A stretch of DNA of 64,000 bases, from contig NZ_CP015637.1 of NCBI RefSeq assembly GCF_001708445.1, positions 1,737,001 through 1,801,000 on the forward strand. The letters run 5' to 3'. The notes beneath the pieces are model-generated. The model was not told the origin of the DNA, did not search any database, and saw nothing but the letters and a program-made list of their open reading frames with translations. Numbering within the stretch: the stretch's first letter is position 1; each line of letters starts with the position of its first letter. Below, in pieces: positions 2,181 to 59,553 of this stretch. The DNA is from Pseudomonas fluorescens. GTDB taxonomy: Bacteria > Pseudomonadota > Gammaproteobacteria > Pseudomonadales > Pseudomonadaceae. The translations under genes were made by a program, and so were the position numbers.

Positions 2181-3196
2181 GCCTGTTGCAGGTCAAAGAC
2201 CTGGAGGTGCGCTTTGCCGCGTCTGGCACTGGCGTGTTGGGTTTGAACAAGCAGTGGGTGAGGGCGGTGAACGGGGTATCGCTGAACCTGGCGGCGGGCG
2301 AGACCCTCGGCCTGGTGGGCGAATCCGGCAGCGGCAAGAGCACTCTGGGCCGTGCGATTCTGCACCTCAACCCGATCAGCGCCGGCCAAGTGTTGTTCGA
2401 CGGTATTGATATGGCCCACGGCAGCGCCATCGATATCGCCCGGCTGCGCCATGAAACCGCGATGATTTTCCAGGACCCGTATGCCGCGCTGAACCCGCGC
2501 CACACCATTGGCGAAACCATTGCCGAGGTGCTGCGGGTGCAACGCAAGGTCCCCGCGCAACAGATTCCGGCTCGCGTCAACGAACTGCTCGACCTGGTCG
2601 GCCTGCGTCCCGAACTCGCCGAGCGCAAACCCGGCGCGCTCAGCGGCGGCCAGTGCCAGCGCGTGGGCATCGCCCGGGCGCTGGCGGTGGAGCCGCGCTT
2701 GATCATCGCTGATGAGTGTGTGGCGGCGCTGGATGTGTCGATCCAGGGCCAGATCATCAACCTGTTGCTGGAGCTGCAACAGCGCATGAACCTGGCGATC
2801 CTGTTCATCGCCCATGACCTGGCCATCGTGCGCCGCCTGTGCGACCGCGTGGCGGTGATGTACCTGGGCAAGATCGTCGAGGAGGGCCCGGTGGAGGCGG
2901 TGTTCACCTCGCCGCGCCATCCGTATACGGCGGCGCTGATCCAGGCGATCCCGGAGATCGATCCGCATCGGCCCTTGCCTACGGAACCCTTGCCGGGTGA
3001 GCCACCCAGCCCATTGAACGTGCCCACCGGCTGTGCGTTTCACCCGCGTTGCCGGTATGCCAAGGCCCTGTGTTCCATGGTGTTGCCGCCGACCCATTTC
3101 CTGCACGAGCATCGGTACAGTTGCGTGCTTGAAGAACCGTTGACCCTTTCTGCCGTCCATAAACAAGGAGTTATGACATGCAATCCCGCCACTTGA
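2177..3196 (+). CDS. ABC transporter ATP-binding protein, DppF/OppF type
   Basis: Second ATPase of the importer, 339 residues. Walker A GESGSGKS lies near residues 52-59, and the signature is LSGGQCQRVGIARAL. Walker B reads LIIADECVAALDVS; most relatives have ADEPVSALDVS, so the Pro to Cys change is unusual, although the catalytic Asp-Glu pair is intact. A C-terminal oligo_HPY region (CAFHPRCRYA) is present. The 3' end overlaps the binding-protein gene by 19 bases in another frame, so the operon continues without a gap. Confidence 0.92.
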   Translation: MSLLQVKDLEVRFAASGTGVLGLNKQWVRAVNGVSLNLAAGETLGLVGESGSGKSTLGRAILHLNPISAGQVLFDGIDMAHGSAIDIARLRHETAMIFQDPYAALNPRHTIGETIAEVLRVQRKVPAQQIPARVNELLDLVGLRPELAERKPGALSGGQCQRVGIARALAVEPRLIIADECVAALDVSIQGQIINLLLELQQRMNLAILFIAHDLAIVRRLCDRVAVMYLGKIVEEGPVEAVFTSPRHPYTAALIQAIPEIDPHRPLPTEPLPGEPPSPLNVPTGCAFHPRCRYAKALCSMVLPPTHFLHEHRYSCVLEEPLTLSAVHKQGVMTCNPAT

Positions 3197-55825: not shown

Positions 55826-56248
55826 CTAAATTTCGTCCGACCAGTCGTAATCTTCTGGTCCAGGACAGTTCATATAAACCGAGGGACCGGATAGGGAAAG
55901 CCATCTGGTCTTGAATTCAATAGAGGCATTTTTAGATTTTGCAGCTAAGAAAAAGTACTCGTTTTCTTGCTTTATTGTTATGAGAAAAACTTCCCTAATG
56001 GGTAGGTTTATTATTTTCAAATCGCTAATTTCTGAGCAGGTCAGTCCAATTCGGCATGCGTTGTATCCTTTATCTTTCCATTTTTCAGGCAGGCATTCAG
56101 GAAATTCTGGTATGTCAAAACCTATGCCCAAGTCATTGTTATCATTTTCTATTCGCAGTGAATGTATATAAGCTTTTCCGATTTCAACTGGTTGCTTGAA
56201 AAGCTTGTTGAAAAAAATAGTTCCATCAAGATCATTCCAATGCTTCAT
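55826..56248 (-). CDS. Imm50-like immunity protein (orphan copy)
   Basis: 140 residues, low GC compared with neighbours. The pattern IGFDIPEFPECLPEKWKDKGYNACRIGLTC...ISDLKI matches Imm50-type immunity proteins of polymorphic toxin systems. It is a clear paralog of the protein encoded at 56979-57380 (shared QPVEIG, GIGFDIP, LPEKWK, GYN, ISDLKI). The ATG follows AAGGAAAAA; the sequence before it (CACACTTTCAAGGAAAAAAATGAA) also matches the toxin-immunity junction upstream, as if a second toxin 3' end had been lost. No matching toxin remains next to it. Confidence 0.75.
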   Translation of the reverse strand: MKHWNDLDGTIFFNKLFKQPVEIGKAYIHSLRIENDNNDLGIGFDIPEFPECLPEKWKDKGYNACRIGLTCSEISDLKIINLPIREVFLITIKQENEYFFLAAKSKNASIEFKTRWLSLSGPSVYMNCPGPEDYDWSDEI

Positions 56249-56383
56249 TTTTTTCCTTGAAAGTGTGGGCGGCGGGGCCTGGGGCAACGCGGACGGATTT
56301 ATTTAATGGAGCAGTGAATAGAATGTTCAGACTGTAAAAAGTTTTGATCCCTTCCTAGTCCTGTTTTTCTGTTGTGCTCGTTT

Positions 56384-56913
56384 TTATGTGTTTTTTGTGC
56401 GGTTTATGTAGAAGTGAATATCTTCAATATTTATTTTGTTAAAGAGGTTTCTTGTTTTTTCGAGAATGATTTCATTCTCGTGGCTGGTTTTATAGAAGAA
56501 CTGAGCTGCGGCATGTGTTTCTGAATCGTAAAATCTGCATAACAATATATTGGCATGCGACTCCAAAAAGACCCTGATTTTCTCAGGGGTGATGAGATTT
56601 TCAAATACTGTCATTTTGAACCAAAGTTCCTCTATTTCCGTTTCGGATTTTTGAATAACTAGAACGGCTTTGTGTGATCCCTCTAAAGCTAGGTTTTGTA
56701 TTTTTCTAGGGTTGCTTGGGCGGTTTTTAATTATGGAGTAGATGTTGCTGTTTTCATTTTTTTACAGAGGTCTCCAGTGGTAAGTGTATTGGATGTATAT
56801 TTTTTAAATAAGTACTCTTCGGCTTTAGAGTTAAATCCTACAGCTGTTGTTGATGTTCATTCTCTTTTTGTAGGCCATTCTTCTGAAAATCTCTTGGAAA
56901 AAAGTGGGGCTAT
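56384..56913 (-). pseudogene. Decayed small gene between the two Imm50 copies
   Basis: AT-rich. The intact part encodes MTVFENLITPEKIRVFLESH... to ...FYINRTKNT (76 residues from the ATG at 56614). The same frame is open and protein-like upstream without a start (NSNIYSIIKNRPSNP, SHKAVLVIQKSETEIEELW). Shifting frame at the A7 run complementary to 56757-56763 continues it as NSKAEEYLFKKYTSNTLTTGDLCKK, interrupted by a TGA at 56857-56859. It looks like an immunity or toxin-associated gene with at least one frameshift and one nonsense change. No family recognised. Confidence 0.45.
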
Positions 56914-56978
56914 TTAACCGAGCAGTGAGTCGGATCTTTAGCCTATAATAGTTCTGTCCACTTTCTGCTACCTTTCTG

Positions 56979-57890
56979 TTAAAAATTTTCATCATTACCT
57001 CTGATGTAAACGTTAGGGTCGCAAATTGAGATGCTCTTGGCCTTAAATTCGATTAAGGAATTTTTGTTGGCAGCATAGAAGCAGAGTTGACCCTTTTCTT
57101 TTTTTACTTTTACGTAAAAATTATCTCGGCCGGGTATGTTGAGTATTTTTAGATCGCTAATGCCATGACAATCAACACCAAGTCTGCAAACGTTGTAACC
57201 TTTGTTTTTCCATTTTTCCGGTAGAATATCTGGGAAATCAGGTATGTCGAACCCAATCCCCAAAGACGGTCGATCATTGTCTATTTGTAAGGAGAAGAGA
57301 GTGATTTCTCCTATCTCTACAGGCTGGCTAAAAATTTTTTCAAAGAATATATTTTTATCTAGTTCATTCCAGTAGTTCATTTTTTTCCTGAAGAAGTAGT
57401 GTGCTTCTGCGTCGATGAGTTTTCCGTTCCGCGGTTGTTCAATAGGTCGTAGATTGAAATGTGTTGTTTGATCTCCAATTCCATCTGCTCTACCGTATTT
57501 ATGCCCTGCAGAATGATCTTGAATAAGGACTTGCGTGCCATCTTTTCTTGTAAATTGATATACCCTCGTCTTGATAGGGTGGCCGGTGGCATCCAGTATT
57601 TTTTTATCATTCAAATCGGTCATGTTTTCTATTTTGTACTGTGTCGTCCGTCCTGTTTTCGGGTGGGTCATCACATCTGGGCTCTGATTCATCGGTATAT
57701 GGGCATCTCTTTTAGCTTGCCTGAAAGCCCCCTTACGAGAAACGTCAGGGGCACCCGGTTCAGTAGGAGTAGCGCAAGCGGGATTTTTTCTTATTGATCC
57801 AGGGCAATTTGCGCTGAGCCCCAAAGGATCAACCCACCCGGTCGGGTTGGGCGCGTACAAGTACCCATTGATCCCACCCGCCAACTTCAC
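56979..57890 (-). CDS. RHS C-terminal toxin tip fused in frame to an Imm50-like immunity protein
   Basis: 303 residues from a GTG, but the frame is open up to 58424 without a start and reads RHS core (YNRHRYYNPDVGRYLTPDP). Residues 1-25 hold the hallmark GWVDPLGL. Residues about 26-170 form a variable toxin tip with KGAFRQAKRDAHIP, VLIQDHSAGHKYG and THFNLRP, resembling HNH/endonuclease VII-fold toxins. From Met171 (57380) an Imm50-like domain follows with no stop. One A fewer in the A7 run at the junction would end the toxin at TGA overlapping the immunity ATG. An intact RHS would be a contact-dependent or type VI effector. Confidence 0.75.
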   Translation of the reverse strand: MKLAGGINGYLYAPNPTGWVDPLGLSANCPGSIRKNPACATPTEPGAPDVSRKGAFRQAKRDAHIPMNQSPDVMTHPKTGRTTQYKIENMTDLNDKKILDATGHPIKTRVYQFTRKDGTQVLIQDHSAGHKYGRADGIGDQTTHFNLRPIEQPRNGKLIDAEAHYFFRKKMNYWNELDKNIFFEKIFSQPVEIGEITLFSLQIDNDRPSLGIGFDIPDFPDILPEKWKNKGYNVCRLGVDCHGISDLKILNIPGRDNFYVKVKKEKGQLCFYAANKNSLIEFKAKSISICDPNVYIRGNDENF

Positions 57891-58348: not shown

Positions 58349-59388
58349 TCAGCCGATGCTGGCAGTCGTAGCGGTATTCGGTGACGAGTTGGTGACCCTT
58401 GCCGTTCCGTTCACGAAGCCATTGTCATGCTCGTAGGACGTCGGCTCGTCATCCCCCGGAAACAGCGCGACCAAGCGCCCGGCTTCGTCGTACTGATACG
58501 CCGTCACCGCCCCCAACGGGTCCTGCTCGACCGTTAGCCGACCTTTGTCATCGTAGGATTTGAAGTGCTGCGCACCGTCCGGATCAATCCGCTGCACCAG
58601 CCGCGCCCGGTGGTCATGGACATACACTTCCTGACTGCCATCGGCGTTGTGCACCGTGACGCGACCGTCCTCGCCCCAGACATAGCGCGTGTCCATCTGC
58701 GAAAAACTGGCCCAATGCCGGACACATCGCGCCGCCTTGCCAGACCGTTCCCACGCCCAGAAGAAACTCGCCCCACCGGCCAAGCCACGCTCAAGAATCA
58801 CGTGCTGCTCGTCGTACCGATACACCTCGCTTTCGCCGACGGCATTGGTCGCCGAGACCAGCCGTCCAGCGTCGTCATAGGCGTAGGCAACAACGTGCTG
58901 CTCCGTCACCCAGACGTAGGGTTCATGCCCCTTGGCGCGCTGAACCTGGTAGTCCACCGCCACAATGCGGCCCCGTTCATAGCGCAAAAACAGCGACCGG
59001 CCCGCGCCGTTATCCAACCGTTCGATGCGCCCCAATACGTCGCGGAAAATTCGCAGGCGGTTGTCATACGCATCACTGATCGAGACCAATACACCGTCGC
59101 GAAAGTGATAAAACCGCGCCGCCTGGGCCAGCACCAGTTCATCCGGCGAAGCGCCCAGATAGATCGCCGCTTCAGCCAGGCTGTTGGTGATCGCGGGGCG
59201 AGCCGCGGTGGGCAGCGGGAACTCAGTCGTGCGGTTTTCATGGTCAATCCAGACGACCGAATCGCCCACCACAGAAAGCCTGTGCGCCAGCGCGTGACTC
59301 CAGCCAAACCCCAACCCGCAATCCACTTCCACCGCACTGGTGCGGTACAACCGGGTCCACTCGAACGGCAAACGCGGCGCCTGTGAGT
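58349..59388 (-). pseudogene. RHS core fragment, 5'-truncated and frameshifted
   Basis: About 346 residues of an RHS protein. It begins abruptly at RLPFEWTRLY, the usual entry to the RHS core (DUF6531 region), right after a REP unit, so the N-terminal half (PAAR or signal region and linker) is missing. YD repeats follow (YDNRLRIFRDVLGRIERLDN, YAYDDAGRLVSATNAVGE, YDDKGRLTVEQDPLGAVTAYQYDEAGRL). After EPTSYEHDNG the frame drifts (FVNGTARVTNSS) while the proper continuation (GKGHQLVTEYRYD) lies in the frame of the downstream piece; a single indel around 58400-58425 explains it. It is not expected to produce a working effector. Confidence 0.8.
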
Positions 59389-59413
59389 TCTTCGCGAGCA
59401 AGCTCGCTCCTAC
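59387..59413. repeat. Single REP unit (family 2) at the truncation point of the RHS remnant
   Basis: TTCGCGAGCAAGCTCGCTCCTACA, the same unit as the right arms at 12739-12840 and 48582-48682. It directly abuts the first RHS codons, so the deletion endpoint coincides with a REP unit. Confidence 0.8.
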
Positions 59414-59439
59414 AAAAAAGCCTTAACTGAACGGCATTA

Positions 59440-59553
59440 GGGCTTGCCCCGCGTTGGGGCGCGTAGCGGCCCTAAAACCAGTCTCCCGGTTCAACAAGAA
59501 GAAATGCGGTGACCTTATTGGGGCGGCCTCGCAGCCCAATGCGGGGCAAGCCC
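59440..59553. repeat. REPIN-like inverted repeat (family 3)
   Basis: GGGCTTGCCCCGCGTTGGG and CCCAATGCGGGGCAAGCCC are near-perfect complements 70 bases apart. The sequence is distinct from families 1 and 2. It occupies most of the 230-base gap between the RHS remnant and ycaQ, together with the REP unit before it. Confidence 0.8.

Follow-up and report, generated by a model that had tools for sequence, protein, structure and literature searches.

An RHS toxin tip and an Imm50 immunity gene in one reading frame in Pseudomonas fluorescens: probably an orphan module with a drifted junction

Orphan toxin-immunity modules have been described for both cdiA-CT/cdiI and rhs-CT/rhsI (Poole et al. 2011, PMC3150448; Koskiniemi et al. 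2014, PMC3967940). In Escherichia coli EC93, the orphan cdiA-CT is transcribed and its protein was undetected, and the orphan immunity gene, which has a start codon and a spaced Shine-Dalgarno (SD) sequence, yields a functional protein (PMC3150448). In Salmonella, an orphan rhs toxin is described as acquiring signals for initiation and export only on being joined to the main gene by recombination (PMC3967940). As to the families that concern us here, the table of Zhang et al. (2012, PMC3482391) names Imm8 and Imm50 in its Tox-EHHH row, and Tox-HHH and Ntox24, not Tox-EHHH, in its Imm50 row.

The locus discussed below lies in a stretch of 64,000 nucleotides of the Pseudomonas fluorescens genome (assembly GCF_001708445.1, contig NZ_CP015637.1, positions 1,737,001 to 1,801,000), which as a whole we call the window and whose own numbering is used; the parts of the RHS gene and both of its Imm50 genes are on the minus strand. 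Six-frame reading gives one uninterrupted frame of 481 codons from 58424 to 56982, closed by a stop codon at 56979–56981, and the shorter open reading frame (ORF) 56979–57890, from which residues are counted here, is likewise without interruption and is open further back, to 58424. Along the fused frame follow the end of an RHS core, the DPLGL motif, a Tox-HNH-EHHH tip, and a complete Imm50 protein. The tip, taken from DPLGL to the A run, comprises 150 codons (57381–57830) and holds the Tox-HNH-EHHH domain PF15657 at 57390–57602 (residues 97–167; 82.5 bits against a Pfam cut-off of 25, E 2.7e-23, full profile 1–69); by visual comparison with the table of PMC3482391, the [ED]H, H, H motif of Tox-EHHH is found in it as DH, GH, and HF. 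The immunity gene (56979–57380) has its own ATG, encodes 133 amino acids, and matches the Imm50 family PF15594 at residues 184–295 (59.2 bits against a cut-off of 27.1, E 5.3e-16). A preliminary description of this DNA had reported DPLGL, a toxin-like tip, and a stop-free run into an Imm50-like protein from Met171, all of which frame reading and the two Pfam families confirm, with Met171 at 57380; the junction that it gave, AGG followed by seven A (A7) and TG, was likewise found, at 57389–57378. Judging by these families, the tip would be a nuclease and the Imm50 protein would protect against it. The fused ORF has no PHROGs family, and a sequence search of the PDB, which returned nine sequences up to E 1, found no solved structure related to either the toxin domain or Imm50: seven of the nine match the first residues of the ORF, that is, the end of the RHS core, and the other two, weak matches to a nuclear corepressor (E 0.037 and 0.068), were taken as chance.

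The junction (57380–57389, minus strand) can be read as an SD-like sequence, a spacer, and the A of the immunity ATG, with AGGA and the A run standing at SD distance from that ATG. An SD-like 4-mer is present in the 14 nt before 71 of the 75 immunity starts that were compared (the window's two included), and before 515 of the 5772 ATGs that these loci contain, the latter being a crude control. The immunity gene has an SD-like sequence and an ATG of its own in the DNA, and we infer that Imm50 initiates at 57380. The A run would persist because it supplies both the SD spacer and Lys codons, and it would drift because the last toxin residues tolerate change. Since the antidote's ribosome site is placed in the last codons of the toxin, an indel there can join the two frames; the open fused frame is unsurprising, because the Imm50 frame is open anyway and a fusion results from any suitably sized indel in the toxin tail.

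Comparable junctions were collected from 53 of 398 congeneric genomes, 22 loci of a contig collection, 7 of 144 relatives, and further stretches, with the genome studied here counted in both the 53 and the 7. Matches to the immW2 query and immunity starts with identical surrounding sequence were left out of the counts. This gave 75 distinct immunity starts, three of which (the second place of L095, L097, and L098) lie in degenerate copies that lack a start codon, so that their place was extrapolated; a toxin tail lies no more than 60 nt from 51 of the starts, and the remaining 24, being without one, stand outside the 51. In 47 of these 51 junctions (the window's being counted among the 51), the toxin and the immunity gene do not share a frame, with 38 junctions in phase 2, nine in phase 1, and four in phase 0. 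The commonest layout, shared by 22 of the 38 phase-2 junctions, places the toxin stop at +4, where it overlaps the immunity ATG as ATGA, so that the overlap that had been called usual for such pairs is borne out as the most frequent one (22/51). In six of the nine phase-1 junctions, the toxin stop is at +17, i.e., 17 nt inside the immunity gene. Within the phase-0 set, L091 stops just before the ATG and L097 is degenerate, and the window and L050 alone read through. Four junctions have A7, namely the window (phase 0), L007 and L047 (both phase 2), and L071 (phase 1), and since they spread over all three phases, the frame is not determined by run length alone. The two closest relatives, with 98% identity of the immunity protein (L003, which is the same as L032, and L004, the same as L033), carry A8, and their toxin ends 17 nt inside the immunity gene; in the next closest, L044 (92% at the immunity gene), a C interrupts the run and the layout is ATGA, and L034 (80%), a phase-1 junction, lacks an A run. 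The run of six A expected in relatives was thus not what the two closest of them have, but the ATGA layout foreseen with it does occur in L044, on an interrupted run. To judge from the two closest relatives, A8 may be the ancestral state, although the other junctions of L044 and L034 speak against taking this as settled. Variation in run length and phase, together with the different frames of 47/51 junctions, supports the earlier suggestion that an indel fused effector and antidote.

Other joined or damaged pairs were seen in the same material. A second toxin-Imm50 fusion, at 3001–3849 of L050, belongs to an rhs frame that stays open over at least 1000 codons upstream; its cause is an extra A in another A run, by which the last residues of the toxin are altered, and it is independent of the window's fusion. 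In P0005, assigned to P. putida by its source, an apparent toxin tail is in frame with Imm50, and L030, L044, and L047 have frameshifted Tox-EHHH tips next to an Imm50 frame that is still open. Among 109 database hits, which have lengths of only ~167–530 aa, no protein has both Pfam domains; 44 of them carry an HFNxRP-type motif, and none of these 44 runs on into Imm50, with three (P0003, P0008, and P0019) having ends of the read-past style.

Upstream of the tip, the RHS gene is damaged. Its 5' end is absent: a 5' core fragment (59371–58413, minus strand), which is 86% identical to L033 and consists of DUF6531 from profile position 23 and RHS repeats, begins inside DUF6531 and adjoins a REP-like repeat at 59384–59449 (minus strand) that also stands at two other RHS fragments of the genome. 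The core is broken at 58413/58412, with a change of frame, and about 1.4 kb of core retained in relatives such as L033, L038, L039, and L044 is gone there. The first ATG, GTG, or TTG in the fused frame is GTG 57890, its codon 179, and no SD-like 4-mer is present in the 20 nt upstream of that GTG. The REP-like repeat contains a TTG behind AGGAG with which the 5' fragment opens, so that some translation of this fragment is possible, in a frame other than that of the toxin. In L033, the frame upstream of the tip is open for at least 1000 codons, as far as the edge of the stretch, and hence unbroken stretches of this gene exist elsewhere.

RHS core matches are found at five places in the genome: one is in the window, two more are in short frames of 361 and 348 codons, and the last two are at 6.60 Mb in long frames of 1487 and 1481 codons. 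Neither long frame has a blastn match to the window core at E 1e-10, that is, no main rhs gene of the same core was found elsewhere in the genome at this threshold; this was not treated as defining, since orphans without homologous upstream sequence are described (PMC3150448). The toxin tip has no other match in the genome. Three RHS 3' fragments (in the window, at 2.12 Mb, and at 5.80 Mb) have a common 5' limit, which corresponds to position 58412 of the window. In the other two, L066 and L067, the REP-like repeat lies within ~20 bases of this limit and carries AGGAG-N5-TTG in the reading frame of the core, whereas in the window the 5' core fragment is placed between repeat and limit; the tips of L066 and L067 after DPLGL look unlike each other and unlike the window tip. 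Among 398 genomes of the genus, the present one alone had the exact joined pattern of repeat and core, in two places; diverged forms would escape a search of this kind.

A second Imm50 gene follows at 55826–56248 (minus strand), 54% identical to the first, and GG-A7-TG again forms its start. It has no toxin domain ahead of it, and a likely remnant of a toxin tail (...HTFKEKNEALE; 56235–56291, minus strand), recognized by eye from other tails, overlaps its start out of frame. Between the two Imm50 genes lies a frame of 125 codons and low GC (56387–56761, minus strand), with a further A7-TG near its start and no Pfam or PHROGs family, which is possibly a decayed immunity or toxin gene; the frame 56834–57052 has no Pfam family.

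We consider it quite probable that the locus is an orphan RHS toxin-immunity module whose fusion arose by what was probably neutral drift, and that the toxin is likely untranslated, with the antidote probably still made from its own site. A one-base change in the A run on this lineage would have created the fusion. That the toxin is silent and the antidote made is probable by analogy with the orphan cdiA-CT and rhs modules, and the Imm50 protein may protect against neighbors with an intact toxin. Evidence against an orphan relic comes from the little-changed tip, the complete PF15657, the TTG that may allow some translation of the 5' fragment (although in another frame than the toxin's), and the fact that no long rhs of matching core was seen in the genome. 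The window tip, which has no visible decay, is 98.7% identical to those of L032 and L033, with pairwise dN/dS of 0.08–0.09. Of the codons that L032 and L033 share but that are changed in the window, polarization placed three of the tip (two synonymous, one not) and one of the immunity gene (nonsynonymous) on the window branch, which are too few to decide; decay of the toxin may be recent.

Slippage, a selected fusion, and sequencing error all rank below drift as explanations of the joined frames. The preliminary description had offered polymerase slippage on the A run, giving fused and separate products from one gene, as an unusual way to set toxin dose, and the position of the run exactly at the junction, where by our reading the toxin would stop within ~20 nt whichever way the frame shifted, speaks for it, as does the case of a T6SS in which slippage on eleven A rescues tssM (PMC4256274). 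Baranov et al., however, report that in a large share of genomes selection against slippage shows itself at a run length of nine nucleotides (PMC1088944); the same source suggests eight nucleotides for some IS elements and leaves shorter runs open for some bacteria. Seven A, against the approximately nine or more of programmed cases, is a common length locally (the window has ten A/T runs of at least 7, the junction run included), the length and phase of the run vary among relatives, with the A7 junctions falling in phases 0, 1, 2, and 2, the run is accounted for as an SD spacer, and the frame of the toxin lacks a start. Dose setting by slippage is therefore not upheld and appears highly implausible, even if low-level slippage may occur at A7, acting on a frame without a start.

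A fusion kept by selection, as a self-neutralized toxin or a toxin-linked immunity protein, would fit the tip and Imm50 being intact as domains, the existence of a second fused locus in L050, and the occasional fusion of SUKH immunity domains to a toxin domain (PMC3482391); we regard it as very unlikely, given that none of the 109 database hits of ~167–530 aa joins the two Pfam domains, that the L050 fusion arose by a different indel that alters the toxin tail, and that the window's frame has no start. Homopolymers are prone to sequencing error. An error of sequencing or assembly that shortened the run, leaving the real genes unfused, would agree with the A8 of the two closest relatives, but the genome is a single contig of completeness 100, L050 and P. 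putida P0005 show joined tail and immunity frames elsewhere, and the core break is a missing segment and not a homopolymer, so that such an error seems improbable. It is also doubtful, although conceivable, that the A-rich SD spacer is a frame-drifting hinge, by which lineages would switch between overlapped, read-past, and fused junctions and replication slippage would disarm the toxin while the antidote survives. The preferred reading, an orphan module whose junction drifted, implies that a fusion of toxin and antidote can arise without function and that an orphan antidote may still shield the cell. Caution is warranted before fused frames or short A runs are taken as regulation, and relatives and start sites should be checked beforehand; this locus is odd in look and most likely an ordinary relic.

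Compared with the described systems, the window resembles the slippage genes dnaX (PMC1088944) and tssM (PMC4256274) in having an A run within a coding frame, and differs from them in run length, with nine or eleven A in those cases and seven here, where the run acts as an SD spacer. Its pair of Imm50 genes recalls the homogeneous polyimmunity loci of PMC3482391, in which paralogues of one immunity family lie side by side, although the window has two Imm50 genes only, one of them still joined to a toxin, and Imm50 is not among the families named as prominent in the polyimmunity passage of that paper. Fusions of the SUKH superfamily (PMC3482391) likewise have an immunity domain and a toxin domain (Tox-GHH is named) in one chain, but they involve other families, and the window's frame is start-less and joined through an A run; a keyword search of the literature for toxin-immunity fusions gave no match, which is no proof of absence, as these SUKH cases do exist. 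The families are the same as in the Tox-EHHH/Imm50 pair of PMC3482391, with one frame in the window as against separate frames in 47/51 junctions. From the orphan cdiA-CT/cdiI and rhs-CT/rhsI modules (PMC3150448, PMC3967940) the window differs in that its toxin frame is joined to the immunity frame and in that a long rhs of matching core was not seen, the two long frames at 6.60 Mb having no blastn match at E 1e-10; it is like them in combining a start-less fragment and a retained toxin domain with an immunity gene that has its own SD-like sequence and start.
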